Positions 1-31,840 of a stretch of DNA of 64,000 nt are shown here, piece after piece (position 1 is the stretch's first letter; each line of letters starts with the position of its first letter). The stretch is taken from assembly GCF_009730915.1 (NCBI RefSeq), contig NC_052473.1, positions 18,248,100 through 18,312,099 of the forward strand, in the 5' to 3' direction. The position numbers were made by a program, and so were the translations under genes. Source of the stretch: Dioscorea cayenensis subsp. rotundata. Its lineage: Eukaryota; Streptophyta; Magnoliopsida; Dioscoreales; Dioscoreaceae. Below the pieces are notes generated by a model, which was not told the DNA's origin, did not search any database, and saw only the letters and a program-made list of their open reading frames with translations.

Positions 1-60
1 TTTTCAAAACTTCCCAAAAACCCCCTCCTACTTTTACACACCCCGGACAGCCCTTCCGAA
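1..60. repeat. Inner part of left MULE terminal inverted repeat
   Basis: The first ~50 bases are C- and A-rich and align loosely with the reverse complement of about 8,590-8,660, the inner part of the right terminus. The outermost bases of this end lie outside the window. Confidence 0.45.
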
Positions 61-261
61 ACATCCTTTAAGACGGAGTTGATGTTTATCACTTGAAAAT
101 TTTTGTTACCGTTTAAGAACCTTACGTTAGTGTACAAATATTACTTTCTGTGTTTAACTATCAGGATCTTCGCTTAAGTCATACCATGACACATTGATTA
201 ATAGGCGTTTTCATGAATGTGTTTGCTTAACCTTTTTTAATGTGTTTCATTCTACGTTGTG

Positions 262-430
262 CAGGTTCAAGTTGATGCGCATGTTATTCAACCGCCGTGA
301 GCAATCGAATGTACAGACACTTGGTGAGTCAAACCGAAATCTTAATAGACAAACGAGGGTCGACTCGCGAGTGTCTAAGGTCCGAGAAGATGTTGTAAAT
401 GTTGTAAATGTTGTAAATGTTTTAAATGAA
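262..430 (+). pseudogene. Duplicated transposase exon start plus 9-bp tandem repeat
   Basis: After a polypyrimidine tract and acceptor-like AG, 262-305 encodes RFKLMRMLFNRREQSN, nearly the same as RFKLMRMLCNRREQAN at the start of the transposase C-terminal exon near 3,058. The match fades after about 45 bases, so this is a stray copy of the exon boundary in the 5' part of the element. It is followed at about 391-430 by three to four copies of a 9-base unit (TTGTAAATG). No functional product is expected. Confidence 0.5.
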
Positions 431-499
431 ACAAGCTTATTTGAGTGTGAACTTATGATATTTAATTTAATCAGATTCTCCATTGTAAACGTTTAAATA

Positions 500-890
500 T
501 TTTAAATAAACAAACCTATTTGAGTATCACCTTGTGATAACTTGTGAAATTTAAACAGAGACATAACAATTTGAGAAACAAAGAATGCCATTGTAAACAA
601 TACAAAAAGTTAAACAATAATCGATTTACTCTTTAAACAATGACAACGGTGTTTAAGCACATACATAAAGATGTTTAAACAGTGACCCAGGAGGTACCCA
701 TCTTCAATGCGATGTCAGTGAAAGCATTCAATTTAAACAATAACATATATTTTAAACAGTTAAATCACTATATTTAAACGGTTTACATATTATTTACATG
801 ATATACACTTTAGTTAAAAAGTTAACCGTTATTTTAAACACTATATGTATCTGTTTAAACATAAAAAGCTTGACGTTTAAACAGAGATTC
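500..890. repeat. TTTAAAC-rich interspersed motif array (one of several)
   Basis: The heptamer TTTAAAC, often extended as TTTAAACAnnnAC, recurs about every 20-40 bases here. Similar clusters sit near 1,550-1,640, 3,660-3,840, 4,190-4,390, 5,330-5,520, 6,790-7,010 and 7,850-8,040, always between coding blocks of the MULE. The spacing is irregular, so this is not a simple tandem satellite. The function is unknown. Confidence 0.6.
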
Positions 891-1648
891 ATGTTGAGGT
901 GAGAACTTTCATTCGAGCGATGACAATATGTCTTCCTCGTGACATTAACATATATTCCCTTTTTGCCCTAAGGATGGAGGGAAAAATACTGCCCAATAGA
1001 ATTGTGCATACAACTGTGCATTTTTTTGTTTGCCTATCATACTGCCCAATAAAATACTGCCCATATATGTCTTCTTTTTGTTCTTCATTTCATTTGGTTT
1101 GTACGATTTGGTTTTCGGCCGATATATTATGGAGAGTTTTTGTGGTATTGCTAGATTCAACGGGGAGGGAAGAGTGCTAATATTCACGGCTCAGACTTCT
1201 TGGGAGTTGATGTTAGTGAGATATGTGAGCGATGGGGTCTCAAGTTTTCCCTTGTCGGGGTGAAGTTTATCACACCCGGATGGATATAAAACGGTTTGTC
1301 CAATAGAAAAACGATGTTGACTTCCGAAACAATGTGTCACGTGCACTCCATCTTCAAAATGCGTCAGTAGTTGATCTTGTTGTCGAGACAGCATAATGTG
1401 CCATTGCGGAATCCTAATGAAAACGAGTTTTACTCGTTCTAAGTTACTTCTCTTTTATTTGATCCAGTTGTATGGGTTCATTATTGTTTAAATATGTCAG
1501 TCACTTGTTAACATATTGTACTATTCTTTTACGTTAATTGGTAACGGTTTAAGTATTTAATTTAACGTTTAAATATTGGCATTATCAGTTAAATATTATA
1601 TTCTCCGCTTAAGATATTGATCTTTTCATTTGACTGAAGTGTTGGCAG

Positions 1649-3600
1649 GAATTCAGATTCTTCGAGTGCTCCCGTTCAATCCCATGGTGACCCTGACGGT
1701 GTGAGATGTCTTCCTTCCTCGTCAGATCATTCTGAAGTGCTGTCGTTGGATATTGGACAACGTTTTGACGGTGTTGAACATTTCAGGGACGTATTTCGAA
1801 ATCATGCAATCAAACGGAATTTTGACTTCAAATTCATAAAGAACGAAAAACATCGGGTGACTGTGGAATGCGCTGCCGATGGTTGTCATTGGCCCCTCAT
1901 TCTTCAAAAGAGTATAATAAAAATACTTTTAGAATCAAGACAATCAACCCGTCACACACTTGCGGTGGTGGCATAGGTTCGGCGTCACATCCAAAAGCGT
2001 GCAAAAAATGGGTAAGTGCACGAGTGATTCAGAGCTCAAGGACCGCCCTCGTATAGAGGCCATCGACATTCGTAAGGACATGTTGCGGGGAACATGGTGT
2101 CCACATACCATACAAGCGAGGCTTGGTTGGGAAAAAGAGCATACCCGGGTGGTCCTCGACTGCAGTAACATCTCCACTCACGATCGCTTTGCTTTGGTAT
2201 GTGGATAAGGTGGGTCGAGACAAATCCCAGCAGCCGTTGCAATCGTGGAAAGAGATGGTGATCGTTTTAAACGTGCATTCTTTTTCTTTCGGGACGTGTA
2301 TTGTGGGAAAATATCGGGTACACTCATCGGGTGCCACAGGGGAAAGATAAAAACAATGGTTTTTTCCACGTCGCCTTCGGTATAGTCGACAACGAAACCG
2401 ATGCCAATTGGACTTGGTTCATATCTAAGTTACGCGATGCTTTATACGAGGAAGGAGATTATCATGAGATAATTACCTTCGGTACGATACGGTGTCGAAG
2501 GGCCTTGTAAACGCAATTGCTGAGTTTTTCCCTTCTTCGCCACACGCATACTATCTTCGACATTTTGAGGCCAATTTTTATGAAAAGCCAATTTGATTTG
2601 GGAAGGCATTGAGGAGGAGTCTTTGGTCGATATGCTTCCGCATTACGTAGGCATCCACGGCTAAAGAATTCGATGATACCGTGAATGAATCTGCCGGTCA
2701 CATCACCAAGCTCATCATCGGTTGATTAATAAATCGAGATATGGCACATTGGTCGAATTATCTCGCTCGGAGGTGATCGTTGGGGTGAGATGTATTCAAA
2801 TGTCGCGAGTCGCTCAATGCTTGGATCAAAGAAGCTCGTCGTTTCTGCTGACGAAAAGCGGTCGAAACTCCATAAGATCTGCGAATGTTGATTTACACTT
2901 AACATTTAGTGTTACCCTTTAAAAATTTTCCATCTTTGTTTAATTAGACTTCTCCGACATTAGATATTGATCTTTTTGCTTAACTATTTACAATAATGTT
3001 TAAACATGTTTACGAATTATTTAACCATCACTATCTTTGTTTAACGTTATTTGCCAGGTTCAAGTTGATGCGCATGTTATGTAACCGGCGTGAGCAAGCG
3101 AACAAATGGGAGACCTACTTATGCCCAGATATACATTCGAAGGTAGAGATAATTGTTGAGGATAGCCGAAATCTTCGTGTTGGTTGTTGTGTCGATGATC
3201 ATTACGAAGTGATCGACGACTGCAGCAACTCTATAGATCTTACCATCAGAACTTGTTCATGTCGAAGGTGGCAAGTTTATGGTATCCCTTGCAAACACGC
3301 TTGCGCTGCAATAATGCAGACATACACCAACGTTCATCGATTTATTAGCGGTTACTTCACCGTCGACAATTACAAAATCAGGGCGATAAGGAAACTATAT
3401 TCCCCATACCGACGACGATGAGCCTTCAAACGAAATCGTGAGCTTCGCTTTTGCATCACCGTGACGAGAAGGCATCCCGGGCATCCTAGACGAAAGAGGA
3501 TCGAGCAGCAAGCGCTTTGATGTCCGCGAGTTACATTGCGGTACATCGCCATGGATCCATCACAATCGTAGATCTTGTAATGAAACTGTCAGCCGACTAG
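1649..3600 (+). pseudogene. MURA-type MULE transposase, frame-disrupted
   Basis: The transposase that would move the element reads in three domains in the expected order. (1) A MuDR N-terminal DNA-binding domain at 1,740-1,960: FRDVFRNHAIKRNFDF, then ECAADGCHWPL and, after a frame change, FRIKTINPSHTCGG. (2) The MULE DDE core at about 2,280-2,660, with FHVAFGIVDNETDANWTWF and, across a frame change, HAYYLRHFEANF. (3) A SWIM zinc finger in an open exon at 3,050-3,421, with CSCRRWQVYGIPCKHACA, followed by a zinc-knuckle region. An intron probably lies at about 2,900-3,056, ending in CCAG. The frame changes several times between 1,950 and 2,720, so no full protein is readable. Some breaks may be sequencing errors. 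It is inactive as written; the first catalytic Asp cannot be confirmed. Confidence 0.75.
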
Positions 3601-4510
3601 GGTATTGTAAATAAGTCGACTTCTAAAGAGAAACAATCTGAATTGATCGGGCAATTTTTTTCATATTTAAACTCTTATTCTTTACAGTGTTATCAGTTAT
3701 TTAAACAGAGAAAGTGTTATGTTAAACAGAGAACCTGTAATTTTAAATGTTTCAAACTAATATTTAAACGATAGATGGTAAAGTTAAATAATTAAAATGA
3801 AATGTAAACAATCACACTGTAAATTAAACAATGAAATGAAACTGAATGGAATTTAACCTGCTTTACAATTGAAAACAAACAAAATTTACATTGACATATA
3901 CAAGTCATGTTCTTCGAAAAAATGAAAACAATGAATTGAATTTGTCTTGGTTTACATTCGAAAACAAAATCGGGAGCTTCGTTTGCGACCATCTGTGACG
4001 AGAAGGCAGCCTGGGCGTCCTAGACGAAAGAGGATCGAGTCGCAAGCGTTTGATGTCCGCGAGTTACATTGCAGTCGCTGCCATGGATCCGGTCACAATC
4101 GTAGATCTTGTAATGAAACTGTCACCGACTAGGCATTGTAAATAAGCTGACTTCTAAAGAGAAACAATCTGAATTGACTGCCAATTTTTCATATATTTAA
4201 ACTCTTATTCTTTACAGTGTTATCAGTTATTTAAACAGAGACAGTGTTATGTTAAACAGAGAACATGTAATTTTAAATGTTTCAAACTGATATTTAAACG
4301 ATAGATGGTAAAGTTAAATAATTAAACTGAAATGTAAACAATCACATCAGAAATTAAATAATGAAATGAAACCGAATGGAATTTAACTCGCTTTTACAAT
4401 TGAAAAACAAACAAAATTTACATTGACATATACAAGTCTTGTTCTTCAAAAAATGAAAAGCGATGAATTGAATTTGTCCCGGTTTTACATTCAAAACGAA
4501 ATTGACATCG
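3430..4510 (+). repeat. ~535-bp direct tandem duplication of the transposase 3' end
   Basis: Two adjacent units (about 3,430-3,964 and 3,965-4,510) share the zinc-knuckle exon and the following TTTAAAC-rich DNA. The second unit keeps a readable zinc knuckle at 3,947-4,132, RELHCSRCHGSGHNRRSC, preceded by GRPRRKRIES. In the first unit the same knuckle is broken by small indels. Which unit is the natural C-terminus is unclear. The duplication is present again at about 14,040-15,170 in the second copy of the locus. Confidence 0.65.
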
Positions 4511-4597
4511 ACATATACAAGTCCCTGCTCATGAAAACAAAAATTTAACCCGCCTTGGACGACCCCTCTTTCTCATGGATGCCGACTGCCTCCCTCC

Positions 4598-7500
4598 TTA
4601 AGTATCGCGGGTAACATACTTTAATCTCAAGTAAGGAACGTGCATGCTGCAGTGGCAGTAGCTTCTCACCCCAAAGTAATTACTCGATAAACCGCATGAC
4701 ATTAGCCGCTTGATCGACGCCTTGCTTGTTTTTGCCGTGGGGTTTCCATGTCGTAAAGGAGGGTACTTCTGAGTGTCAGCCAACTCGCTGAACTCCATAT
4801 CGACTGTACCGTGTCGAATAGATTTCACTGTCGAGATATGCGAGTTGAGATTAAAAATACTTTGAATTAAATAACAAACAATCGTCAATCGGACATAATT
4901 AAAGAACTTACCCATGTCCAACGCGTCTTTTTCAGTCACGCGCATGAAGAATAATGCATGTATTCTTGTTTGTCATTGTCAAGGACGGCTGACATGGAAG
5001 TGGCCATTCATTATTATAGGGAGGGATGACAATTTGAACTTCATGTAAGTCAGCAAGACGACATCTCCGATCATAGCCAGTAGTTGTCACGTATGTGCTC
5101 GTCTCGCTTTGACATAAACAAGACCAACGGTCTTGTGATGGAGGCGTGCTTTCTTGTAGGGATATGGCACTTTACTCGTGACTTTTGTATTATGCATACA
5201 AAGCGTCCATCACATCATCCGCTGACCGTCTCCTTCCCCTCAGCGAGTGTATAAATTATACACGAGTGTAGATATCGTGATTCTTCCACACTGACAGGTC
5301 TTTGAGATTAAAGCGATAGCAGTATATAATTAGACCATATTCTAAATAGTTAAAATGATATTATCAATGTTCAAATGATATTATAAATAATTAAACGTTA
5401 AGTAGATAAATTAAATGATAACATATAAACATTTAAACACTATCAAAAGAAAGTTAAACACTATCACAAAAATTTAAACACTATCATGAAAACTTTAAAC
5501 TTACCATCCATCTGGCGCTTAAGGAAGATCCTTATCAACTCCCGCTAGTATTTGTTAAAGGCACGAATCGACCAACCCATTTTTCTTCTTCGAACTGAAG
5601 ACTTGCTGAGCCGTCTCTGTCCCCATTGTTGATTGGCCTTGATCATCTCTCGCGTTGCTCGGTCGAGGTCTTCAGTCGGGCTAATCGCTGCTGAGCCATG
5701 ATGGTGATTCGAGACCGACCGCATCTTCCGTCGATGTGACGAGCGACAACATCAACAGCAGACACATCCTTACGTGGTTGTTCTTATTGTGGGATTGTGC
5801 TCGCCCGGGATCGCGGGGGACGACGGTGACAGCATCAACCGCAGACACATCCTTACATGGTTCTTGTTGTTGTGGGATTGTGTCTTGCTTCGATGCCGTA
5901 CTGTTGGTCACGGCCACGGCCACAACAATAGATTCAACAATCTTCTCAGTCGTGGCCACGGCAATAGCATCATCCTGAGACAAACCCTTAGCTTGTTCTT
6001 GTTCTTCAGGGATTGTGTCCATCTTTGATGCCGCAATCTCGGCAGTCGGTTCCACCGGGTTGGGGATTTCGTTAACAAGAGAGTTAACAATTTTCTCAAC
6101 CGCGGCAACGGCCACATCATCTACGATGTCCTCACGCGTCGTGGCCATGTCATCAACGGCGATGCACTCGATATGACATCACCGCCGATGGTGTTGCTAT
6201 TGTTTCATTATGTCGCTGGTGGAGAGCAGAGGCGATATTATTCTCCCTCTTTTTCGCAAGTCTCTTCGAATGTGGCGTCTTGGAATGGCCACTCGATGAT
6301 ATCGTCTCGTCGCATTAACGCCTCGCTCGTCCCGAGTGCTTCAGTTTTTAGAGGATTGCGTGAGTACATCGTGAGCGTCCCTTCCGAGCCTCGACACGAG
6401 CGACAAGCCGAGGAAACTCAGTGATCGATATCTGGCGCGCTGCGCGATAAGAGTTGCGGTGACATCTTCGCCTAATGTCGCTGCGTGCGTCACGGCTTGA
6501 GGGGCCGCCATGGTCGAGTCGCCCTATCGGGGGACCGCATCGTTGTTGTGGTAGGGGGTTGTTGCTAATCTGGCGTGGGGAGGGCTCTCGCGTCGAGGAA
6601 TGCGTGCGCGCGTGGTGGGGTGGAAGTAGGAGAGCAGGCGTTGGAGGCGCGCGATAGAGGCGCCCCTCTCGTCCACGCCCGAGCAAGTGGTTCGTGAGCG
6701 ATAGCATCCATCCGCTTGGCTCCCAACAAATATTTCTTCTTAAAGACTACGTAGGAACCCATTTCGGAAACTAACATATATAAACCAAACAATTTCAATA
6801 AATCATTCGGTTTTAAACTATAACAACTATATTTAAACAGAGTTTTTATATATTAAACATTATAGAATATATTTAAAGCGGAGAACAAAAATATTTAAAC
6901 CTTTATTAATAACTTTTAAACTGTAGAATAATAAATTTAACGCTAAATAAAATGTTTAAACATTAAAGACTTCTGTTAAACATTGTCCATGATTTATTAC
7001 TTCTTTTCCTTCGAGCGATGACAAGTTGGTTTCTACTTCGTCTCTTCCTTGCAGTAACTACTTTCACATGGTATGACGAGCATCCTTGGGATCTTGCTTT
7101 GAAATGGACTTTTCTTTTCCCGTTCGAGCCATCATGAAACCATCGTTAAGCGCTTTAAACCGAGCACCCTTATAATATATCCCCGTGTTGGTCTTCTTCC
7201 GGGCTCTATCTGTGACTCGAGCTGGCCGTTGTGGAATGTCCTCCATTGACCACTTGTCGTCGCCTCGCGCCCGTCGTGTCGCCCATGGCGGGCTAGATCA
7301 TCGACTTTGATAATCAGCGATCCGAGTTGAGCCGGGCGTGATGTATTTGGGAAGGGAGATACCTGAGCGAGGCACCCATCGAGGAGTTTGAAAAATTTTT
7401 CTTCTTCCCCTGCAGTCGAGACAAGTTGGACAAGAGTGCTCTTGATGGAGTCTCAGCGTGTCTCTCATAAGTTTTTGATAAATACCTACCTTGAGCGTTG

Positions 7501-7751
7501 AGGCGGGTTTTATTCTTCTTAAACCGACTGGCGTCGCCATCTCAACGAGACCAAGCGAGAACCACATCTTGAGGCGCTGAAACTCGGCCGAGCTTTCCCC
7601 AGATCTCGAATTTATTGATGCTGACCGTCGTACACTGCGATAGAGAATCGAGAGGGCCCTCTGCTTGGTATATAGCTTCCGACTTTCGGTGAATCATAAG
7701 CGGTTTCCTTCGGATGATGCTTCCGGTGTCGAGGGTCGTGTTATCTTTCAA
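4598..7751 (-). pseudogene. Second MULE gene on reverse strand, possibly Ulp1/C48-protease type, disrupted
   Basis: Several open stretches follow one another on the - strand: 7,751-7,542, 7,567-7,298, 7,246-7,064, 6,707-6,348, 6,148-5,681 and 4,945-4,598. TTTAAAC-rich, intron-like gaps fall at about 6,780-7,010 and 5,330-5,520. The 6,148-5,681 part begins MATTREDIVDDVAVAAVEKI and repeats the pattern EKIV.S.V twice. Near 5,040-4,950, across a frame change, NGHFHVS and LDNDKQEYMHYSS resemble the strand around the catalytic His of Ulp1-like (C48) proteases. Some plant MULEs (the Kaonashi type) are known to carry such a protease gene. I cannot see the Asp and Cys of a catalytic triad, so the family call is a hypothesis. 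The gene is converging with the transposase and unreadable as one frame. Confidence 0.35.
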
Positions 7752-8639
7752 TTCGGCAAAGGTCTCCCACTACTGCGTTGTCAAATAGGATCGCGCGTTA
7801 ACTAGGTTGAGCCGCTGTAGTCAAAAGCTGCGGCAATGTAACAACATTAAGCGGAAATATAAGATTTTAAGCGTTAACCTTCGGGTTCTTAAGCGGATAT
7901 ATCAATTGTTAAAGCGAGAGAACTAGTTTATTAAGCAGAGAACAATCTTAAGCAGAGACAACAAAATTTAAAGCTGTAACATCTCATTTGTTAAACATAA
8001 ACCTCATTTTTAAAAGCGAAACCATATCAAATGAAAGGGGAAATGTCATTATAAATATTACCTGAATCATAACAATCGAAAAACTATTTCGATAGTGTAT
8101 CTGAACGAAAGCGCAAAAACAACACAAAAGCCGTGGCCGAGAAATGCCTTTGAGACTAACAAAACCCGGTGAGGAGAAATCGTGCAGACTTGATATCTTC
8201 CAACAAAAAGCAGGAGCCTGAAAGCGAAACGAAAAATCTTTCTTTATGTGACGAATGAGTTACTGCATAAAGCCCATACTCGATACCTTAGATCAGAATC
8301 GATGAAATAGCAACTCACTTGCGCGGGACTACTCCTTGAGATCTGGGTGGAAAGGGAAAAAGCTTGATTACTGATGCCGACAGAGAGAACTTCGGAGACA
8401 GACTGGAAATGGTTTAGCGAAGATGCTAGTTGAGAAAAATAACTAAAAGGCTTCGATGAATTCCTCTTGCGGGTTATCCTACGAGGAAAAACCCCCACTT
8501 CCTCTCATCTGCCTGAAATGGGCTGCGATCGCGACTCCCCATGTAAGGGTATTTTTGTCCATAAAATTTTAAAATCACTCCGTTGACATCCGTTACATGC
8601 TTTGGGGGGTTGAAAAACATGGAATTAAAAAGGAAGGAG

Positions 8640-8713
8640 TTTTTGGGGAGTGCAAAACTAACGGGGTGTTTTTGGCAATATTGCAAACTTAGAGGGTGTT
8701 TTTGGCAATTTCC
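8640..8713. repeat. Right MULE terminal inverted repeat
   Basis: G- and T-rich terminus ending in GGCAATTTCC, containing the motif GGGTGTTTTTGGCAA twice at a 30-base period. Beyond 8,713 the sequence becomes AT-rich and unrelated. The equivalent end in the second copy is 19,448. Confidence 0.6.
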
Positions 8714-9330
8714 ACAATTGATAATGAGGCATTGAAATTTTTAATAAAAATTTATGAATAATATTAATAAAATTTATAAAATAATTTAATGATTTTAAAG
8801 AAATTAAATTGATAATGTGTTGAAGTGTTAAGTTTTTTATACTTTTACTGATTAACAAGTTTTCTTATTTTCAAAAAGTTACCGAAATTTTATATTTTAT
8901 AAAAATTTAAGACAAATTAAGTTGATAATGTGGCATTCAAATTTCAAATTTTCAATAAAAGTTTCTGAATAATATTAATAAAATTTATAAAAACAATTTA
9001 ATAATTTTAAAATATTAAGTTGATAATGTAGCATGGCAAGCATAAATTATTTGTTCTAATATAATAATATACATGTTAAAATAAATGAATGATTGTTTAG
9101 TTGATACAGTTAAATATAGTTATAATCGGATCACACCATGCTTGACAACGATAGAAGTTCAAATTATAGTTAATATTTTTACTATATGTATATTCAAATT
9201 GTAGTAATATTATTGAGCTATTTTTACGTAGATAATTATTTTATTTGATAATTTTTCTGACTCTAGTTTTGAAACTTCTCTACGGGTAGAAGTTTTTGGT
9301 TCGCTCATTGATTCCATGGAATTGAAGGAA
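8714..9330. other. AT-rich intergenic DNA
   Basis: No gene seen. The stretch is rich in short repeated phrases such as AAATTAAGTTGATAATGT. It matches 19,449-20,040 closely, with differences mostly in A/T run lengths. Confidence 0.6.
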
Positions 9331-9351
9331 TGGCCTTTTCAGAGTGCTCGA

Positions 9352-11185
9352 TGGAGAGAAAAGGCAGGGCGTGGACTCACCGTAGGGCGACACTGAGGTG
9401 GCGGCGGGCCGGGGAATGGGCACGGTGGGGACGAGGCAAACGTCGTGCTGCCATTTTTCGAAATCGAGGAGAGCGGAGGAGAATGAAGACGATGGAGACG
9501 ATGTTGACCTAGAACGAGACTTGGCTGACTTGTCCACGTTCCTGGGAGCGTATATATATACATGTATATTTTAGTAGTGAATGTGTGAGAGTCCTTATCG
9601 CGAGACGATTGATGATCGGCTGAGATTTTTCCAAAATTAAGGAATCCACAACGCGAGGGCAGCCCATCATCGCGAGACATCATGCAAAGGATGGGTGCAA
9701 ATACCGAGGCGAGATGGTTTCTCCTTCCAACCAATCTTCATCTTGTGATGGATGATCCATCTCGAGGCACCAAAACTCAATCCGAGGCGATCAGATCTCT
9801 GTTGTTACCAGCCTTGTCAAACACCAATCCCGAGGGCAAACTGAGCAATACTCTGCTGCATCTGGCATCTATTTCAAATGGTTAGGATATGCGAAATTAT
9901 AATGAAGTGACAAGTGGATGCAAAGCCCTTGAACTTGCTTGTAGTGATCTCAAGAATGGTTAGGATATGCGCTTATATCTCTGTATATTTCCTTTTATCT
10001 TGTTTAAAAAGTAGTTACTGCGCCATTGATGATTGAATCATGAAGGATGACGCTTCAACTGCAATTTGAATGCTTTTGAGATGAAAAGAAACTCTCTATT
10101 TTGATGTTTCTGGTATATATTGGCATGGAACATGCTATATTCTTCTTTGCTATACATTGAAAAACAGTTGTTTGATGATTATCAGTTAGTAGATAATTTT
10201 TGTGTAAATCTTGGACTTTTATAAGTTTATCAGTGATGACACATGTTTGTTTATTAGAACTAATTAATAAATTTTATGGGAGCATTCTTAATTCTCATAG
10301 TTCCCTTGAGCATTTCTCAAATAGAAATTTATGTAGCTGATTGTATTTTTTGCTATATGGATGAATGGTCCTCTCTATGCTTTTTATGCAACAATTTGAA
10401 ACATGTCCGTATGCATGCATGTCTAGGCACATGTAAGTTCAGCCTAGTTTCATTCCATCAGTGTAAGAGAATTTTGAATGTCTCTGCAGATAGTTAAGGA
10501 GCCATGCTTGATGAAAATCTCAGTAGCCTGTGACAATCGATTTTCTAAAATTATAAGTAATGAAGGTTATGCATTATGCAGCAGAGTATCAAGAAATTCA
10601 TGATTTAAAAGACTGGATTCTAGTTGAACAGGAAGAGAAAAAGGAGTTGCAAAAGAAGCTCCAAATGCAGAATGCGAATGTAAGACTTCCATAGACATAA
10701 TTGCTGCTGAATTAATTTTCAAGATCGATCTACTACGCATGCACCTATTTTTGGTTCTTATTGACGAAACTCTTGGACTTGTATCCATCCTGCTGTTCTT
10801 CATCTGGGGAACTGCTTCATCTGCCAGATTGAACACTGAAACTGGTTTATGTACTTCAAAAGTTTACTTTCCATACAATGGTTCCTCAACATTTTGCAGT
10901 ATGGTTGTACAGTGCTAAAACCTCAAGACGAAGCAAGCGGAAGAGCAAAGGGTGACAATCTCCATCCATCATAAAGAGACTTTAAAGCAGAAGATAATTA
11001 AACTAAGAAAGAAAAACGAGAGTCTCTAAAGAGGCAGCTACATGTCGTGGTCTATGAACTTTGATGTTGTGGCATTGCACTCTTCAAAATCATCTACTAT
11101 TCATGTCTTCCTGTTTTTCATGGAACTAGAAGTTTGTATACAGTACAGGATCATATTTTTGGCAAATGTACTCAGTTTTACATAG
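9352..11185 (+). pseudogene. Coiled-coil protein gene, first (left) copy, frame errors near its 3' end
   Basis: This is the same gene as at about 20,095-21,919. A coiled-coil exon at 10,582-10,679 is intact, with acceptor TATGCAG and donor GTAAG. It encodes EYQEIHDLKDWILVEQEEKK followed by more Lys/Glu/Gln-rich residues. The final exon (about 10,900-11,185) carries several one- or two-base insertions that break the frame present in the other copy. The errors are densest towards the N gap at 12,118, so they are more likely unpolished sequence at a contig end than real decay. The 5' exons (9,352-9,890) are uncertain. I do not recognise the protein family. Confidence 0.45.
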
Positions 11186-11533
11186 AACTTTGCATGGTGG
11201 CTAAATTGTTGATTGCCATGAGTTGTTTTGAGCTGCTATTGTAATACAAATCCCAGCTTCTTAGCATTGATCTTTTCAGTTTACTTCAAACTGTTTCCAA
11301 CAAACAACTGCAGCAATCAGGACTTATGAGATAACAGGCAGTGTGATATCAACTATAACAGCATTGAATGAAAAAGCATGTTATCACTCTAAAGTTTCAA
11401 AAGTTTATTTGCAATAGTTTCATCCAATTTCCTTGAACCTACACTCATGTTCTGATTCTAAAGTAAAAGATATAAATAAGCTACCGTAATGGCATTTTGT
11501 AAGTTATTTCTATTGAGCCCTACTGATCTTCAT

Positions 11534-11793
11534 TCAGAGGTCTTTTCTTTCAACACCAAGAAGTTTCGCCAGTTTACTGCTTTTCATATGCTTCAACGGT
11601 ATCTGAAATTTTATAAGCAAATGTAAGTAGCAGAACAATTTGAAGATGCACACATGAGAAGAAAAGAATTTAAAAGAAAAATGGGGTTCATTACCATCAG
11701 ATCCACCCAAATGCTTCCCATTGATAAAAACTTGTGGGACAGTTCGCCTCCCAACACTTTTCGAAAGGAGCATCTGTATGTCCCATCCATCAT
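11534..11793 (-). pseudogene. Glutaredoxin 3' exons, first copy, truncated by the assembly gap
   Basis: Exon 4 (11,534-11,602) and exon 3 (11,695-11,793) of the CPYC glutaredoxin complete at 22,270-24,255 appear here. Exons 1 and 2 are absent because the sequence runs into the N run. Exon 3 still reads [19 protein letters not shown]. Exon 4 lacks three bases (an in-frame codon loss) and has one extra base that shifts the frame, and exon 3 has offsetting small changes upstream of RRTVPQ. These look like end-of-contig sequence errors of the same locus. Confidence 0.75.
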
Positions 11794-12117
11794 CTACGTG
11801 ATATCATTATTAATGGACAATGAAAAGTTCAAAGGATTTTTAAATATAGTTTTACTGAACTTTTCACAGCATATGAAGTCATAAAATGGAGAACATAAAG
11901 TTGTTGTGCTAGTTAATTGAGAGAGAGTAGGGATTTTGCGTAGGGCATCTTCAGTAGAGAGGAGGATATTGGAAACAACTCTTGACTAAGCATCAAGCAA
12001 CCAAATGCTATGTAGTTCATCATGCAAAGTTTGACGGACACAACAGCAGGCTTTGGGAATCAACAAAAGGGAAAGAGGATTTGTGCACAAACAAAAGAAA
12101 CATATTCTTGTACATAA

Positions 12118-13117
12118 NNNNNNNNNNNNNNNNNNNNNNNNNNNNNNNNNNNNNNNNNNNNNNNNNNNNNNNNNNNNNNNNNNNNNNNNNNNNNNNNNNN
12201 NNNNNNNNNNNNNNNNNNNNNNNNNNNNNNNNNNNNNNNNNNNNNNNNNNNNNNNNNNNNNNNNNNNNNNNNNNNNNNNNNNNNNNNNNNNNNNNNNNNN
12301 NNNNNNNNNNNNNNNNNNNNNNNNNNNNNNNNNNNNNNNNNNNNNNNNNNNNNNNNNNNNNNNNNNNNNNNNNNNNNNNNNNNNNNNNNNNNNNNNNNNN
12401 NNNNNNNNNNNNNNNNNNNNNNNNNNNNNNNNNNNNNNNNNNNNNNNNNNNNNNNNNNNNNNNNNNNNNNNNNNNNNNNNNNNNNNNNNNNNNNNNNNNN
12501 NNNNNNNNNNNNNNNNNNNNNNNNNNNNNNNNNNNNNNNNNNNNNNNNNNNNNNNNNNNNNNNNNNNNNNNNNNNNNNNNNNNNNNNNNNNNNNNNNNNN
12601 NNNNNNNNNNNNNNNNNNNNNNNNNNNNNNNNNNNNNNNNNNNNNNNNNNNNNNNNNNNNNNNNNNNNNNNNNNNNNNNNNNNNNNNNNNNNNNNNNNNN
12701 NNNNNNNNNNNNNNNNNNNNNNNNNNNNNNNNNNNNNNNNNNNNNNNNNNNNNNNNNNNNNNNNNNNNNNNNNNNNNNNNNNNNNNNNNNNNNNNNNNNN
12801 NNNNNNNNNNNNNNNNNNNNNNNNNNNNNNNNNNNNNNNNNNNNNNNNNNNNNNNNNNNNNNNNNNNNNNNNNNNNNNNNNNNNNNNNNNNNNNNNNNNN
12901 NNNNNNNNNNNNNNNNNNNNNNNNNNNNNNNNNNNNNNNNNNNNNNNNNNNNNNNNNNNNNNNNNNNNNNNNNNNNNNNNNNNNNNNNNNNNNNNNNNNN
13001 NNNNNNNNNNNNNNNNNNNNNNNNNNNNNNNNNNNNNNNNNNNNNNNNNNNNNNNNNNNNNNNNNNNNNNNNNNNNNNNNNNNNNNNNNNNNNNNNNNNN
13101 NNNNNNNNNNNNNNNNN
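12118..13117. other. Assembly gap, exactly 1,000 N
   Basis: A run of exactly 1,000 ambiguous bases, the usual placeholder for a gap of unknown size. Reading frames that span it are meaningless. Confidence 0.99.
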
Positions 13118-16100
13118 CATGCTATCTTGACATTTGGAAGCGGTTATGAAAGCCAATTTCAGATTTGGGAAGGCATTGAGGGAGGAGTGCTGAGCGATGT
13201 GCTTCCGCGTGCGTGGGCATCACGTAAGGAATTCGATAATCTGCGTGAATAGGCTAGCAGTCGCACTCGCCCCGAAACTCGCTGTTGGATTGATTGTCAT
13301 CGGATAGCACATTGGTGAATGCTCTATTCGGAGGTGATCGTTGGGGTGAGATGTATTCAAATGCTCCAGGCCGATCAGTGCTTGGATCAAAAGAAGCTCG
13401 CCATTTGACCGCTGTGAAACCGGTCGACTCCATAGAGATCTCGCCGAATGTTGATTTACACTTAACATTTTGAGCGTTTACCCTTTAAAAATCCATCTTT
13501 CGTTTACACTAGACTTCTCCGACGTTAGATAATGATCTTTTGCTTAACTATTTACAATAATGTTTAAACATGCTACGAATTATTTAACCATCACTATACT
13601 CTTTGTTTAACGTTTACGTTACCGACTTGCGCCTGCTCGAGCTGAGCGCACGTTACGAAATCCCAGCGAGCAAGCTGAGGCAAACGGGAGACCCTGCCTG
13701 CTGAGATATACATCCGAGCGTAGAGGATAATTGTTGAGGATACGAAATCTTACGCGGTTGGTTGTTGTCAGTCGATGATCAATACGCATGCATCGACGGC
13801 ATGCACCGAACTCGGTAGATCTTACCATCGAGAACTCGTTTCGTGCTCGAGGTGGCAAGTTGTAAAGCTATCCTTCCGCGAGCAACGTCATGCGCAATAA
13901 TCTGCAGCACATACACGCGCTACATCGACCGACTTTATTAGCTGGATTACTTCACCCGGCCGACAATTTACAAACCGGGCGTATAAGGAAAGCTATATTC
14001 TACACATCTCGGCGTATACGCCAGACTGCATGACGGAAATCGTGAGCTTCGCTCAAGCGACCGCTGACGCGAAGGCGTCGAGCGTCCTGTAGCGCGAAAA
14101 AGAGGATCGAGTCATGGCTGCTTTGATGTCCAGCGAAGCGCATTCTTGACCCGGCGCTATGGATCCACGCACTTGTCGGCCGAGATCTTTGTAATGAAAG
14201 CTGTCGCCCGACTACGTATCGTCAGGAATAAGTCGACTTTCAAAGCAGAAAACAATCTGAGATCGACTTTGCGATTTTTCATATTTAAACTCTTATTCTT
14301 TCTACGGTAAGTTATCCAGTTATTTAAAGCAGAGAAAGTGTTATGTTAAAGCGGACAGGGAACACAGCAATTTTAAATGTTTCAAACTAATATTTAAAGC
14401 GATAGGATGGTAAGAGTTGAAATAATTACCAAATGAAATGTAAACAATCACTGCTGTAAATTAAACAAAATAGCGGACTGAACTGGAATTTAACACGCTT
14501 TACAATCGAAAACAAACAAAATTTACATCGACATATACAAGGTCATGTTCTTCGAGATGAAAACAATGAATTGAATTTGTCGTGGTTTACGATCTGCGAA
14601 ACACAAAATCTGAGACTTCGTGTCGATACCGTCTCACAGCAACTGAGAAAGGCTGACGTCAAGAGCAGATTTAGAAAGAGGATCAGACAGAGCGTGTCAT
14701 CGTCTCATGAAAGTTACATCACGCCGGGCCCGCCATGGATCCTGGCGCAATGTCAGTAGATCTCATGTAATGAAAGCTCGTCGCGAAACTAGTGCATCGT
14801 GAAATAAGCCGACTTCTAAGAGAAACAATCTGAATCGACTGCCGATTTTCATATATTTCAGCTCTTATTCTTTACAGAAATACTGTCGCTATTTAAAGCA
14901 GTAGCCAGGTGTTACGTTAAAGCCAGTAGGAACATGTAATTTTAAATGTTTCAGGCTGATATTTTGACGAGTAGGTGGTAGGAGCAATGATTAAAACCTA
15001 TGACAGCAACAATCACCTCAGTAAATTAAATAATGAAATGAAATACGACCCAGACGGAATTTAACACGCTTTGCAATCGAAAACAAAACCAAAAATTTAC
15101 ATCGTACATATACAAAGTCTTGTTCTTCATGAGTAACGATGAATTGAATTTGTCCTCGGTTTTTACGTCCAGCGAATCGACGTCGACATATACAAGTCCT
15201 CGATCACCGAAAGGCAAAACGCAACCCGCCTTTGGACCACCTCTTTCTCATGGCGGATGCCGCTACCGCCCTCCCCTCCTGTATCGCGGTGTAAATACGC
15301 CGCTAATCTCTCAAGCGCACGCGCGATGCAGCCGGTAGCCGTGGCTTCTCACCCAAGTAATTACTGGAAGTAAAGCATGGCGTTAGCGCTGATCGGGCGA
15401 CAGCTTCAGTTTTCTTACTGCGGGTTTCATGTCGATGAGAGCTGGCGATTGCTGCGCGCCAACTCGCCCGAACTCCATGCCCGACCCGGTACCGCGATGG
15501 CGATTTCACTGCCGAGGATATGCGAGTTGAGATTAAAATCAAGTTTAATTAAATAACAAACCTCGCACGCGGACATACTAAAGGACACCATATCATGGCA
15601 ACGCGCCTTTTCGTACTCACGCACGCTGAAGAACACACGCACAGTAAATGCATGTGTGCTCTGTGTCGACACTGACGACTATGGACGCGCGGCCAGTCAT
15701 TATAGGGAGGACGACAAGAGTTGAACTTCATGTAAAGTCGCATACAGACAAAGCTCTCCATCCATAGCCGTAGTCAGGAGTCATGTCGGCCGTCCTCGCT
15801 CTGCTAGACATAAAACGACACCAGCGGTCTTAGCCGAGTAAGGAGGCGTTGCTTCTTGTAGGGATATGGGCACTTTACTCACGACTTTTTGCAGTATGCA
15901 TACAAAAGCGCCCATCACATCATCTCAGTCGACCATCTCCTTCCTCAAGCAGGGTAAGATGTAGTAAATTATACTGTCAAAGGCCGGATAGACTATTCTT
16001 CCACACGACAATACGAGATTAAACGATAATGATATAATTAGACCATATTCTAAATAGTTAAATGATATTATCAATGTTCAAATGATATTATAAATAATTA

Positions 16101-19100
16101 AACGTTATAGAGTAAATTAAACGAGTAACATATAAACATTTAAACACTATCAAAAAGAAAGTTAAACACTATCACAAAAATTTAAACACTATCATGAAAA
16201 CTTTAAAACTTACCGTCCATACCGGCAGCTTACAGGAAGATCCTTATCAACTCCTCGCTTGTATGTTAGCACGCCGAACGAGTCAAACCGTCTTCTTCTG
16301 AACGAAGACTTGCCGAGTCGTCTCGGTCTCATGGTCGATCGCTTTCGATCATCCTCGCGCCGTCGGCCGTGGGGTCTCTCATGGAACTGTCAGTTGAGCC
16401 ATGATGGTTCGCAGCACCAGATCCTCCTTCGCCGTGGGGACGACGACGACAACATCAACCGCGGATACATCCTTACGTGGTTGTTCTTATCGTGGGATGT
16501 GTCCGCTTCGATGTCGGATCGACGCCGCAAGATCAACCGCGTACACATCCTTATACGGTTCTTTTGGTTGCGGGATCGCTGGCCTCGCTTCGACGCCGCA
16601 TCTTGTTGATCACGCCACTGCCACAACAATAGATTCAACAATCTTCCTGACACGGCTACTTCAAGTAGCATCTATCCCGAGACAAACCCTTAGCTTGTTC
16701 TCGTGTTTCTGTGGATCGGTCCATTCTCACGCCGCATCTCTGGCACTTTGCCCCACCGGTCAGGATTTCCTCGGAGTCAAGATGTTAACAATTTAATTTT
16801 CTCAACCGCAGAATTCAGCCCACATCATCTACGATGTCCTCCACCGTCACGGCCATAGTCATCAATCTACATGACTTTCGTCATGACGATCACCGCCACT
16901 GGTGTCATGCTATTGTTTCACTGTCACCGGCCATGGGGAGCTAAGAGGCAGATTGTTCTCCCTCTTTTCGTCAAGTCTCTTCGAATGTGGCCGCTTGAAA
17001 CGGCCAATGACGATGCTCGTGCCGCTGCCAAATCTCACGCGCCCTGCTTCGTCCCAGAGTGCAGTTTTTAGAGGGATCACAGTGACCGCGAACGCCCTTC
17101 CGTAGCCTCAACACGAGCTGATAAACCCGAGGAACTCGTATGATCAATATTCGCGCTACCGCGATAAGAGCTGCAGCTGACATTCGCCTAATGTCGCGGG
17201 CCACATGCGGTCGCTATGGGCTGCCATGGTCGGGCCGCAGCATACACGGACCGCTCGCATGGTGGGTAGGGGGTTACTGTAATCAAGCGGTGGGGAGGGC
17301 TTCTCTGGCCGAGGAATGCGCTGCGCGGTGGGGTCTGGAAGTAGGAGAACGACAGGCCGAGCCGCCAGACAGAGGCGCCGCCTCCTCATCCCGCCTTCGA
17401 TAAGCTGGTTCCCGAGTAATAAGATTCCATCCGTCTTAGCCTCCAACAAATATTTCTTCTTCACAGACTACGGAACCAAATCTCAGAAACTAACATATGT
17501 AAACCAAACAATTTTCAATGAAATCATTCAGTTTTAAACTATAACAACTATATTTAAACATGAAGTTTTTATATATTAAACATTATAGAATATATTTAAA
17601 CGGAGAACAAAATATTTAAACCTTTATTAATAACTTTTTAAAACTCAGAATAATAAATTTAAACGCTTAAATAAAATGTTTAAACATTAAAGACTTCAGT
17701 AAAACATCGTCTATGATTTATTACTTCTTTCCTTCGAGCTGATGACATGTTGGTTTCTACCGCTCTCGCCTCCTAGAATTACTTTCACCGTGAGGACAAA
17801 GATCCTTGGGATCTCATTAAATGGACTTTTCTTTTCCCGCTCCAGCCACTCAGAAACTATACGCTAAGCTTTGACCGAAAGCACCCCTTAATATATCCCT
17901 GTGGCTGAGTCTTCTTCCCGCTCTATCTTGCGACTCGAGCGGCTCGCCATGGGAATGTCCTCCATCGACCACCAGTGCGCCGCCTACGCCAGTACGTCCT
18001 ACCATGGCGGGTAGATCATCGACATAATCACCCATCCAGCCAGTAACCGGGCATGATGTATTTGGGAAGAGGGATCGCATCGTACGAGGTACACCATCGA
18101 GTTTGAAAAATTTTCTTCTTCCCCTCTCGTCGAACAAGTCGACAAGAGCGCTCTTCACGGAGTCTCGTGTCTCTCATAAGTTTTTGATAAATACCTACCT
18201 TCGAACGCTGAGCCGGGTTTTATTCTTCTAAACACGATCGCTGTCGCCATCACAACGCACTCAAGAACGAGGAACCACATCTCGAGGCCTGCGAAACTCG
18301 AAAGAAGCTTTCCCGATCCCCGAATTTATTGGTGCGGCCATCGTATTTCTGCAATAGAGAATCAAGAAGTGGCCCTCTGGTATATAGCTTCCACTCAAAT
18401 TGAACGCTAGAAACGGCTTTCCTTCGATGATCTTCCAGGCTGGCGGGGTCTGTTATCTTTCAATTCAAAGAAGGTCTCCCACTACGCTGTCAAATAGGAT
18501 CGCCCATTAACTAGGGTCGACCGCCATAGTCAAAAAGTCTGCCACAATAACAACACATTAAGCTGAAATATAAGATTTTAAACGTTAACCTTCGGGCCTA
18601 AACGGATATATCAATCTGTTAAACAGAGAACTAGCTTTATTAAACAGTAGACAACAATACTTAAAACAGAGACAACAAAATTTAAACTCAGTAATATCTC
18701 ATTTGTTAAACATAAACCTCATTTTTAAAACTCAAAACCATATCAAAACGAAAAGTGAAAATGTACATTATAAATATTACACAAATCATAACAATCGAAA
18801 AAACTATTTCGATAGGATAGTGCATCTAAAAGCGAAGAAACAACAGCAAAACCAGTAGGCTAGAAATCGCCTTTGCAGACTAACAAAACCCCAAAGCAGA
18901 AATCCCCATGCAGACTTCAATATCTTCCAACAAAAAACAGTGGAGCACAAACGAAACCCGAAAAAATCTTTCTTTAGAATGGAATAGTTACCATAAAACC
19001 ATACTCAATACCTTAGATCGCAACCCGATGAAACTGGCAACTACTATGCGGGACTCTCCTTCGAGATACCGGTGGAAAGGGAAAAGCTTCAATTACAGAG

Positions 19101-19448
19101 GCCGCGCCGGTAGAGAGAACTTCGGAGACAGCTTCGGAAATGGTTTAACTGAAGATGCTAGTTGAGAAAAAAATAACTAAAAAGGCTTCAAGAATTCTCT
19201 CGGGGTTATCCTCACTGAAAACCCCCACTTCCTCCTCATACCGCGAAATGGTCACTGCATCACGACTCCCACTGTAAGGGGTATTTTTGTCCATAAAAAT
19301 TTTAAAATCACTCCGCTGACATCCGTTACATGCTTTGGGGGTTGAAAAACACTGGAATTAAAAAGGAAGGAGTTTTTGGGGGAGTCAGAAACTAATCAGG
19401 TGTTTTTAGCGATATTCAGAAAACTTAGAGGTGTTTTTAGCGATTTCC
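13118..19448 (+). mobile_element. Second, left-truncated and very noisy copy of the same MULE
   Basis: Collinear with about 2,546-8,713 from the first base after the gap. It contains the end of the transposase core, the broken SWIM exon (about 13,560-14,010), the ~535-bp tandem duplication (about 14,040-15,170), the reverse-strand second gene (fragments at 18,158-17,850, 17,464-17,156 and 16,671-16,390) and the right terminus at 19,448. It differs from the first copy by frequent one- to three-base insertions and substitutions, which break every frame. The right terminus and the flanking DNA are the same as in the first copy, so this is the same insertion and not an independent element. Confidence 0.75.
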
Positions 19449-20040
19449 ACAATTGATAATGAGGCATTGAAATTTTTAATAAAAATTTATGAATAATATT
19501 AATAAAAATTTATAAAAATAATTTAATGATTTTAAAAGAAAATTAAATTGATAATGTGTTGAAGTGTTAAGTTTTTTTATACTTTTACTCGATTAACAAG
19601 TTTTCTTATTTTTCAAAAAAGTTACCGAAATTTTATATTTTATAAAAATTTAAGACAAATTAAGTTGATAATGTGGCATTCAAATTTCAAATTTTCAATA
19701 AAAGTTTCTGAATAATATTAATAAAATTTATAAAAACAATTTAATAATTTTAAAATATTAAGTTGATAATGTAGCATGGCAAGCATAAATTATTTGTTCT
19801 AATATAATAATATACATGTTAAAATAAATGAATGATTGTTTAGTTGTCTAGTTAAATATAGTTATTTTTTTTTAGTCAGATACACACCATGACAACGATA
19901 GAAGTTCAAATTATAGTTAATATTTTTTTCACTATATGTATATTCAAATTGTAGTAATATTATTGAACTATTTTTACTGTAGATAATTATTTTATTTGAT
20001 AATTTTTTTACACTCTAGTTTTAGCCCCCCTACCGGTAAG
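19449..20040. other. AT-rich intergenic DNA (second copy)
   Basis: Matches 8,714-9,270 closely, with differences mostly in the length of A and T runs. No gene seen. Confidence 0.6.
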
Positions 20041-20094
20041 TTTTGGTTCCGCCATTGATTCCGCCAAATTGAAGGAATGGCCTTTCAGTGCCTG

Positions 20095-21919
20095 ATGGAG
20101 AGAAAAGGCAAGGGCGGGACTCACCGTAGGCGACCTGAGGTGGCCGCGGAGCCCGGGAATGGGCACGGTGGGGACGAGCAAACGTCGTGCTGCCATTTTC
20201 GAAATCGAGGAGAGCGGAGGAGAATGAAGACGATGGAGACGATGTTGACCTAGAACGAGACTTGGCTTTGACTTGTCCACGTTCCTGGGAGCGTATATAT
20301 ATACATGTATATTTTAGTGTGAATGTGTGAGAGTCCTTATCGCGAGACGATTGATGATCGGCTGAGATTTTTCCAAAATTAAGGAATCCACAACGCGAGG
20401 CAGCCCATCATCGCGAGACATCATGCAAAGGATGGGTGCAAATACCGAGGCGAATGGATTTCTCCTTCCAACCAATCTTCATCTTGTGATGGATGATCCA
20501 TCTCGAGGCACCAAAACTCAATCCCGAGGCGATCAGATCTCTGTTGTTACCAGCCTTGTCAAACACCAATCCCGAGGCAAACTGAGCAATACTCTGCTGC
20601 ATCTGGCATCATTTCAAATGGTTAGGATATGCGAAATTATAATGAAGTGACAAGTGGATGCAAAGCCCTTGAACTTGCTTGTAGTGATCTCAAGAATGGT
20701 TAGGATATGCGCTTATATCTCTGTATATTTCCTTTTATCTTGTTTAAAAAGTAGTTACTGCGCCATTGATGATTGAATCATGAAGGATGACGCTTCAACT
20801 GCAATTTGAATGCTTTTGAGATGAAAAGAAACTCTCTATTTTGATGTTTCTGGTATATATTGGCATGGAACATGCTATATTCTTCTTGCTATACATTGAA
20901 AACAGTTGTTTGATGGTTATCAGTTAGTAGATAATTTTTTGTGTAAATCTTGGACTTTATAAGTTTATCAGTGATGACACATGTTTGTTTATTAGAACTA
21001 ATTAATAAATTTTATGGAGCATTCTTAATTCTCATAGTTCCCTTGAAGCATTTCTCAAATAGAAATTTATGTAGCTGATTGTATTTTTTGCTATATGGAT
21101 GAATGGTCCTCTCTATGCTTTTTATGCAACAATTTGAAACATGTCCGTATGCATGCATGTCTAGGCACATGTAAGTTCAGCCTAGTTTCATTCCATCAGT
21201 GTAAGAGAATTTTGAATGTCTCTGCAGATAGTTAAGGAGCCATGCTTGATGAAAATCTCAGTAGCCTGTGAAAATCGATTTTCTAAAATTATAAGTAATG
21301 AAGGTTATGCATTATGCAGCAGAGTATCAAGAAATTCATGATTTAAAAGACTGGATTCTAGTTGAACAGGAAGAGAAAAAGGAGTTGCAAAAGAAGCTCC
21401 AAATGCAGAATGCGAATGTAAGACTTCCATAGACATAATTGCTGCTGAATTAATTTTCAAGATCGATCTACTACGCATGCACCTATTTTTGGTTCTTATT
21501 GACGAAACTCTTGGACTTGTATCCATCCTGCTGTTCTTCATCTGGGGAACTGCTTCATCTGCCAGATTGAACACTGAAACTGGTTTATGTACTTCAAAAA
21601 GTTTACTTTCCATACAATGGTTCCTCAACATTTGCAGTATGGTTGTACAGTGCTAAACCTCAAGACGAAGCAAGCGGAAGAGCAAAGGGTGACAATCTCC
21701 ATCCATCATAAAGAGACTTTAAAGCAGAAGATAATTAAACTAAGAAAAGAAAACGAGTCTCTAAAGAGGCAGCTACATGTCGTGTCTATGAACTTTGATG
21801 TTGTGGCATTGCACTCTTCAAAATCATCTACTTTTGTCTTGCCTGTTTTTCATGGAACTAGAAGTTTGTATACAGTACAGGATCATATTTTGGCAAAATG
21901 TACTCAGTTTTATACATAG
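20095..21919 (+). CDS. Unidentified coiled-coil protein (second, cleaner copy), exon structure partly inferred
   Basis: Two 3' exons are well supported. One is 21,320-21,417 (acceptor TATGCAG, donor GTAAG), coding EYQEIHDLKDWILVEQEEKK and a further Gln/Lys-rich stretch. The other is 21,638-21,919 (acceptor TTTGCAG, stop TAG), coding YGCTVLNLKTKQAEEQRV and a Lys/Glu-rich coiled coil (KQKIIKLRKENESLKRQL). The two join in phase. Upstream, an ATG at 20,095 opens a basic stretch. After probable indels it gives an acidic segment, EENEDDGDDVDLERDL (20,220-20,265). Another open stretch lies at 20,423-20,650, and a possible short exon near 20,640-20,698. The 5' assembly is not certain. The gene converges on the glutaredoxin gene, 350 bases between stops. 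I do not recognise the family; a nuclear or cytoskeletal coiled-coil protein is only a guess. Confidence 0.5.
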
Positions 21920-22269
21920 AACTTGCATGGTGGCTAAATTGTTGATTGCCATGAAATTGTGTTTTGAGCTGCTATTGTAATACAAATCCCAGCTTCTTAG
22001 CATTGATCTTTTCAGTTTACTTCAAACTATTTCCAACAAACAACTGCAGCAATCAGGACTTATAGATAACAGGCAGTGTGATATCAACTATAACAGCATT
22101 GAATGAAAAAGCATGTTATCACTCTAAAGTTTCAAAAGTTTATTTGCAATAGTTTCATCCAATTTCCTTGAACCTACACTCATGTTCTGATTCTAAAGTA
22201 AAAGAAACATAAATAAGCTACCGAATGGCATTTTGTAAGTTATTTCTATTGAGCCCTACTGATCTTCAT

Positions 22270-24255
22270 TCAGAGGTCTTCTTTTCTTTCAACACCAAGA
22301 AGTTTCGCCAGTTTACCGTTTTCATATGCTTCAACGGTATCTGAAATTTTATAAGCAAATGTAAGTAGCAGAACAATTTGAAGATGCACACATGAGAAGA
22401 AAAGAATTTAAAAGAAAAATGGGGTTCATTACCATCAGATCCACCCAAATGCTTCCCATTGATAAAAACTTGTGGGACAGTTCGCCTCCCAACAATTTCG
22501 GAAAGGGCATCTTGTATGTCCCATCCATCATCTACGTGATAAAAAAAAAATCATTATTAATGGACAATGAAAGTTCAAAGGATTTTAACATAATTTTACT
22601 GAACTCTTTCACAGCACAATGAAGTCATAAACGGAGAACATGTAAGTTGTTGTGCTAGTTAATTGAGAGAGTAGGATTTTGCACGTAGGGCATCTTCAGT
22701 AGAAGAGGATGATATTGGAAACAACTCTTGACTAAGCATCAAGCAACCAAATAAGTAGTTCACATTGTGTTGATGGACACAACAGCAGGCTTTGGGAATC
22801 AACAAAAGGGAAGAGATTTGTGCACAAACAAAGAAACATATTCTTGTACATAAAATAAACAGACCTGGAGATCTAACAAGAATGAAATGCTTGAAACTTT
22901 TAATCACATAAATCTAGACTCAGAATTTCATTGTCAATAGAGGAAAAAATAAAGAAAGACGAATAGGACAAACCCAAAGATTTTGGATCTTCTTTCCTTC
23001 AATAAATTAAGTATCACATAAATCCCTTATTGATAAGTGGGTATAATTTCTATGAGATGATTGTGTTGCCCCTACTTTTCTAATCAAGTACACTTCACAA
23101 TTCACAGCACACTGACAAAGATTTAAATGAAGTTCTCTCCAGAGTTTCCTGTCTTCAACCTTTAGTGCACAATACGATCAAACAATAACTTTCACAAGAA
23201 AACCGATCATATGCCACAAGATGATCTAAAGGAAGCATCAACAAACCTCTTTCATCAAGTTCTACAACATATGGCACCTTGCTCAGTGACTTGAAGACAC
23301 CCTTTGCTCTTCTGCAATACCTGCTCAAAACCATGCCATGCTCAGTGCAGAGGTATAACACAGCCCCAAAATGCAAAATTGAAGCATAAAACTAAGTCAA
23401 TAATGGATGCTTATCAATACAAACATTCAAACACACATTCAAGTATACAAATAAGTCAATAGTGAATATTCACCAACCTAAAAGCTTGAACTGGGCATTC
23501 ATATAAAAAGGTAAGTAAATAATGACTATTTCTCAACAGAAAACTCAAAATGCACATTCAAGAAAAGAAGCAAGTCAATAATGAATGCTCCTAAAAAAAC
23601 ATTCACATTCAAGCACAAAATCAAATCAATAAAGAGTTTTCATCGATACAACCTCCAAAATAAGCATTTAAAAGCAAGTGAACAATGAATGTTCAACATC
23701 ACAAAATTCAAAATGCACATTCAAGGAATTCCAAGACAACAACTTTCAGAAATCATTCTCATACAAGCAAACAGAAACAAACACAAGGCAACAACTTTAG
23801 GCTTAATCGCGCACTAAACCAAAAATTAATTTATCTGGTTAAAATCCAATCCTGAAGGAGAAACATTGCATAAGTTCAACACTGAGTTTCAACTACACCA
23901 ACCTCACAAAGCACATACACATACAAATAGCCCTAAAGACAACACCTTTCAAGACTCACAAAGGATTTACTCCATAAAATCCCAAATAAGCACTCATCCA
24001 AACAAATCACATGAAACAAAGGACTTAAAATGAATGAAAAAGGCAAGGAGTGATCTACGAGAAGGAAATCAAAAGTAGAGAAAGCGCGTACGGGCAGTAA
24101 GACTTGGAGAAGATGACGATCTCGTGGGCAGCCACAGTTTTCTTCACAAACGCCGATGGAGAGGCCCCCATTGAGGAACCAAAGAGAGACGCCGCCGCCA
24201 TCGCAGCCAGAAGCGCTGCCGCCGCCACAGCCCCACTCCTCCTCGCCACTGCCAT
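22270..24255 (-). CDS. CPYC-type class I glutaredoxin with N-terminal signal-like extension
   Basis: A glutathione-dependent dithiol oxidoreductase. Four exons join cleanly: 24,255-24,092, 23,320-23,247, 22,531-22,433 and 22,340-22,270 (135 residues). All introns are GT-AG. The active site CPYC (C54-C57) is split by intron 1 after the second base of Pro. The glutathione-binding motifs TVP (97-99) and GGSDD (109-113) are present, and the C-terminus is [13 protein letters not shown]. Residues 8-25 are a hydrophobic Ala-rich stretch after two Arg, which suggests secretory-pathway targeting as in plant GRXC3/C4-type proteins. The ATG at 24,255 was chosen because it directly precedes this signal; an in-frame ATG at 24,300 would add 15 residues. 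The 3' exons also occur at 11,534-11,793 because of the duplicated assembly block. Confidence 0.9.
23391..23726. repeat. Degenerate ~55-60-bp minisatellite in glutaredoxin intron 1
   Basis: About six diverged units, each containing a phrase like AAGTCAATAATGAATG followed later by ACATTCAAG. Starts are near 23,391, 23,452, 23,513, 23,572, 23,624 and 23,677. Confidence 0.55.
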
Positions 24256-31713: not shown

Positions 31714-31840
31714 AAAAAAACAAAGGGACCCATGAAGTATGTTTGGTCGGACTCGGTTTAGTCAAAGTGGTTGGAAAAAAAAGAATCCCAAAGATTAGAT
31801 TTCATTTTCCGTTTTCCATTTTCTATTTTCATTTTCAACG

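Follow-up and report, generated by a model that had tools for sequence, protein, structure and literature searches.

Rhie et al. 2021 (PMC8081667) describe for homotype false duplications, among other properties, a position at contig boundaries, a length of about one read and a difference in consensus quality. Here we analysed a locus of Dioscorea cayenensis subsp. rotundata with a similar appearance: two collinear copies, A and B, lie on both sides of a gap in a stretch of 64,000 nucleotides of NC_052473.1 (C3:18248100-18312099; hereafter the window), which belongs to a genome of 584 Mb in 2,249 contigs. Both copies contain part of a Mutator-like element (MULE), a transposon type with terminal inverted repeats and a target-site duplication of 9-11 bp. 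Judged from the sequence, it is very probable that one locus is present here twice, the overlapping ends of two contigs having been left unmerged, be they allelic or not, which would be an ordinary assembly artefact.

The two copies and the gap

Copies A and B are joined collinearly by a single blastn alignment, which comprises 10,056 columns and has an identity of 83.1% (510 gap openings and 895 mismatches; 8,898 bits), far above chance, and which stops on either side exactly where it meets the N run. An earlier note on this DNA had proposed two collinear copies against a 1,000-N gap, which is borne out by this alignment; the start of copy A, placed there at 2546, had to be corrected to 2547. 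The elements of this arrangement are:

1..12117, + strand: part of the copy-A contig inside the window, delimited by the flanking 1000-N runs
2547..12117, + strand: copy A, the overlapping right end of the 17,150-bp contig (blastn)
12118..13117, no strand: gap of 1000 N, very likely a placeholder (N count)
13118..22853, + strand: copy B, the overlapping left end of the 57,033-bp contig (blastn)

The gap is the sole N run of the window and comprises exactly 1000 N. Other runs of this size are located at C3:18242067-18243066 and C3:18318250-18319249. Accordingly, the copy-A contig has 1000 N on either side and a length of 17,150 bp, beginning 5,033 bases ahead of the first base of the window, while the copy-B contig extends over 57,033 bp from window position 13118 to C3:18318249. 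Since all six distinct gaps met in the analysis have exactly 1000 N, this number is very likely a placeholder. The overlap amounts to 9.6-9.7 kb, the copy-A contig having 17,150 bp.

The MULE insertion and its relatives

Window positions ~58-8715 correspond to one MULE with many genomic copies; 1 kb of it has at least 47 matches in the genome, that of A itself counted. For comparison, 16 relatives were fetched as loci of ~10 kb (L012-L027), picked among those most similar to A. The features of the element are:

58..8715, + strand: MULE in copy A, with a MuDR DNA-binding domain (PF03108, E 2.4e-18) and a SWIM zinc finger (PF04434, E 8.6e-11); the left limit was set from one relative (L022+L037) and the right limit from 15
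3428..4502, + strand: internal tandem duplication of ~530 bp (units 3428-3970 and 3962-4502, 90% self match), present in B too
13118..19450, + strand: the MULE insertion again, in B, with its right-hand portion only and error-rich (comparison with relatives)

Three observations indicate that A and B hold the same insertion. First, the right flank of the element is identical in A and B and different in all 15 relatives that reach this end (L026 does not). Second, the internal duplication is common to A and B, and all 16 fetched relatives hold one unit. Third, on 5,095 columns in which at least 80% of the relatives agree, A and B have 91 private substitutions in common versus ~7 expected by chance (sum over 12 bins); they occur in all 12 bins and reach the left edge of B. 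Thus, the earlier proposal of the same MULE insertion with the same flanks holds for the insertion and the right flank. It does not hold for the left flank: copy B begins within the MULE and hence has no left end there. Nor is the outer flank on the left unique, as the note had it, since the many-copy MULE extends into it.

Between the MULE ends only short inverted matches were detected, and no target-site duplication was assigned upon inspection of the junctions. Paired matches suggest internal MULE repeats with other limits in the same area in four further copies, on C2, C7, C11 and C20.

Character of the differences between the copies

MAFFT misaligned the noisy part of the copies, and a gap-tolerant global alignment was chosen for comparing A with B. 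It revealed two regimes of identity. In the MULE part (A up to 8715) there are 733 gap openings and 396 mismatches, and the gapped identity is 77.3% (5,280 of 6,827 columns). In the remaining part the numbers are 95 and 25, respectively, and the identity is 95.3% (3,308 of 3,472 columns).

Comparison with the relatives shows that the differences in the MULE part are unlike those within the family. In the best alignments of seven relatives with each other, all 21 pairs are 89.7-94.5% identical, and gap openings number 0.1-1.7 per 100 columns. When A was compared with the same seven, we found 83.8-86.9% identity and 2.7-3.9 gap openings per 100 columns, and for B 72.6-75.8% and 6.2-6.5, respectively, with every relative. 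The changes private to A amount to 5.1 mismatches, 1.6 deletions and 1.9 insertions per 100 columns (3.6 indels), and those private to B to 8.0, 3.5 and 5.1 (8.6 indels). The corresponding values for the 16 relatives are 2.0-3.5 mismatches, 0-0.85 deletions and 0-1.2 insertions, with at most 2.0 indels; one relative served as the coordinate reference, so that its indels are zero by construction. The private indels of A tend to climb towards the gap and those of B to drop with the distance from it, both unevenly.

The substitutions are also asymmetric, and in opposite directions. Among those found only in A, A>G changes outnumber T>C changes (53 vs 17, p 1.9e-5), whereas among those found only in B, T>C changes outnumber A>G changes (81 vs 25, p 4.5e-8). 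In the relatives the two directions stand at 194 vs 162. We considered whether the asymmetry could come from bases which relatives also carry; it persists among variants absent from every relative, with 40 vs 10 for A and 65 vs 19 for B. As to context, the A>G changes of A occur preferentially after C (odds ratio 6.3) and the T>C changes of B preferentially before G (odds ratio 3.6). Opposite asymmetries would arise if long reads from opposite strands had been left under-corrected in the two copies. In line with this, PMC8486125 reports for nanopore reads that substitutions between A and G, with the strand of the read taken into account, are three to five times as frequent as transversions. 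Taken together, the indel excess over the relatives and the opposite asymmetries strongly suggest that the differences between A and B are technical.

The remaining part of the copies is of low copy number. A search with 9500-12117 against the genome, unplaced contigs included, returned A and B only, besides two short matches on C5 and C2 and diverged paralog pieces at C3:18319318-18322030 (74-93% identity) and on C17 (84%). The pieces on C3 (L030, L032 and L033) are inverted and begin right after a 1000-N gap, ~7-10 kb past the end of the window. The features of this part are:

8716..12117, + strand: low-copy part of A (19451-22853 in B); paralogs fit B better (genome search, paralog alignments)
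22266..22550, - strand: open reading frame (ORF) in B that encodes the C-terminal portion of a glutaredoxin domain (PF00462, E 1.6e-07, profile positions 29-59)

Aligned with other penalties, the two low-copy parts differ at 119 sites, 84 of which are indels (43 in homopolymers) and 35 substitutions. Only 5 substitutions in the 3,467 columns are isolated (0.14%), and one identical run extends over 323 columns. Three paralog stretches score higher with B than with A (820/726, 787/769 and 680/630), the lengths being unequal in the L031 pair, where the alignment with B is the longer one. In addition, residues are altered in the A counterpart of the glutaredoxin-like ORF and its frame changes close to the end (tblastn), and a second open frame of B (21578-21919), which matches no Pfam family, is interrupted in A. 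Because paralogs fit B better and frames are damaged in A, at least a part of the errors in the low-copy region is on the side of A. The earlier note had the first block cut within a glutaredoxin locus. This is plausible, a partial domain being present in B. A regular-expression search for the missing half of the domain gave nothing convincing. No Pfam family was assigned to 10 of the 13 ORFs scanned.

Origin of the duplication and comparison with known systems

We favour unmerged contig ends as the explanation, because the copy-A contig is small, the insertion is shared, the pair shows two divergences, and its differences are rich in indels and carry opposite asymmetries. The earlier note had come to the same explanation, which is now well supported on evidence other than its own. 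According to our proposal, two overlapping long-read contigs would have been scaffolded side by side with a fixed spacer of 1000 N in place of merging, so that the 17,150-bp contig closes with the last ~9.6 kb of the locus and the next contig (57 kb) opens with the same stretch. The likely cause is that the larger share of the overlap consists of the high-copy MULE, which would be error-rich in both contigs, and the overlap would have seemed too poor or too repetitive for merging. In the low-copy part reads would map unambiguously, and correction was probably better there. In bacterial assemblies, short-read polishing was described as unreliable in repeats, where errors often persist (PMC8812927). 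We infer that the two ends stem from one haplotype rather than from two alleles, and from reads of opposite strands on a long-read platform.

Several observations weigh against this explanation or weaken its support. A 13-base motif, in which B deviates from the relatives, occurs twice in B near the right MULE end (19401-19413 and 19432-19444) and at 86 places elsewhere, thus at 88 places in the genome versus 6 for the reversed control. It was tested as a genome-wide error marker, and 8 of its places were fetched. A gap lies within 4 kb at 2 of these loci and at none of the other 6. Six loci gave long matches, in which gap openings relative to the best relative number 2.9-6.0 per 100 columns, and the remaining 2 gave short matches only. 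Four of the 8 loci are indel-rich over long matches with no N in 4 kb. Since indel-rich copies thus occur without a nearby gap, noise alone is no mark of a contig tip. The motif could be either an error signature or a natural variant. The sequence context is also ambiguous: the minority directions of substitution, with fewer events, have similar odds ratios (4.1 and 3.1), and between A and B the trinucleotide rates have a correlation of only rho 0.45 (p 0.08). The CA/TG context therefore does not separate the strands, and the asymmetry rests on the counts. The fit to nanopore errors is limited: PMC8486125 reports that such reads contain more deletions than insertions and shift in favour of A and T, and in B insertions outnumber deletions (5.1 vs 3.5 per 100 columns). 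Further, a dovetail was found at only one of the four gaps with comparable flanks, namely that of the window; the three others each have one short flank (1,967, 6,850 and 2,699 bp), and the gaps on C4 and C18 were left out of this comparison. As the 16 relatives were picked for their similarity to A, clean copies are favoured in the sample, and given the repeats suggested in four other copies, an internal duplication in this area of the MULE is not unique in kind. Last, the 5 isolated substitutions of the low-copy part could be allelic.

This last point leads to a variant of the same explanation, in which the two contig ends come from two haplotypes, both kept in the primary assembly (heterotype false duplication). 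It predicts the same geometry, and 5 isolated substitutions per 3,467 low-copy columns are what weakly diverged alleles might leave; since allelic and error differences can coexist, a case of low divergence is compatible with the data. We nevertheless regard this variant as rather unlikely, because 84 of the 119 low-copy differences are indels, the asymmetries in A and B are opposite, the isolated substitutions make up only 0.14%, and the genome search with 9500-12117, which covered unplaced contigs too, revealed no third near-identical copy.

Much less probable is a genuine tandem duplication of recent date with its junction inside the gap, arising for instance when two MULE copies exchange unequally. 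The earlier note had argued against it from the coincidence of both breakpoints with the gap. This argument carries less weight than the note gave it, since a gap placed over a real tandem junction would cut both copies alike, so that the edges do not separate the two explanations. The geometry is then equally expected, and the start of B inside the MULE would also suit such an exchange. A duplication of this kind should have a single age, yet the non-identity is 22.7% in one part and 4.7% in the other, and the differences between A and B are not of an evolutionary kind. Moreover, the copy-A contig has only 17,150 bp, and the private MULE changes of A are found in B up to its left edge with no exchange visible. 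Unequal exchange with another MULE copy was considered separately and discarded, as the shared private changes show no switch. Two independent insertions of one MULE family beside paralogous genes of an old segmental duplication, for which the diverged paralog pieces at C3:18319318-18322030 (74-93%) and on C17 (84%) could be quoted, can be dismissed, because A and B agree in the precise site of insertion, in the internal duplication and in private substitutions, and because no paralog found comes anywhere near the mutual similarity of their low-copy parts.

Unmerged contig ends at this locus would have consequences for its use, as a warning only. An annotation could list a duplicated glutaredoxin-like gene with one damaged copy, a duplicated MULE and too high a transposon divergence, all of them then spurious. 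Where supposed copies show substitution asymmetries in opposite directions, this may serve as a useful sign of an artefact that needs no reads. It is tempting to speculate, and we do so with reservation, that high-copy transposons of this finished chromosome assembly may retain strand-oriented raw-read errors, in which case the strand of the reads underlying a contig, and false duplications like this one, might be recognizable in the assembly alone. Transposon ages derived from copies of this kind would then be overestimates.

The second contig contains further repeats: a direct pair of ~2 kb (window 25257-27251 and 48636-50589, 72% identity) and two local tandem duplications (27293-27544 and 27549-27800, 96% identity; 30768-31224 and 31230-31715, 77% identity).

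In comparison with known systems, the element at this locus is an ordinary resident MULE, typical in its MuDR and SWIM domains and in its many copies with differing right flanks. With heterotype (haplotypic) false duplications the pair shares the scaffold geometry; these are expected to be rich in substitutions, whereas the differences between A and B are dominated by indels. The closest likeness is to the homotype false duplications of Rhie et al. 2021 (PMC8081667) and Ko et al. 2022 (PMC9516828). Like them, A and B form a collinear pair across a gap at contig boundaries, and their consensus quality is unequal, as seen from their private changes and from the better fit of paralogs to B. The difference lies in the means of classification, which was done there by read depth and k-mer multiplicity and here by substitution asymmetry and comparison with the transposon family.

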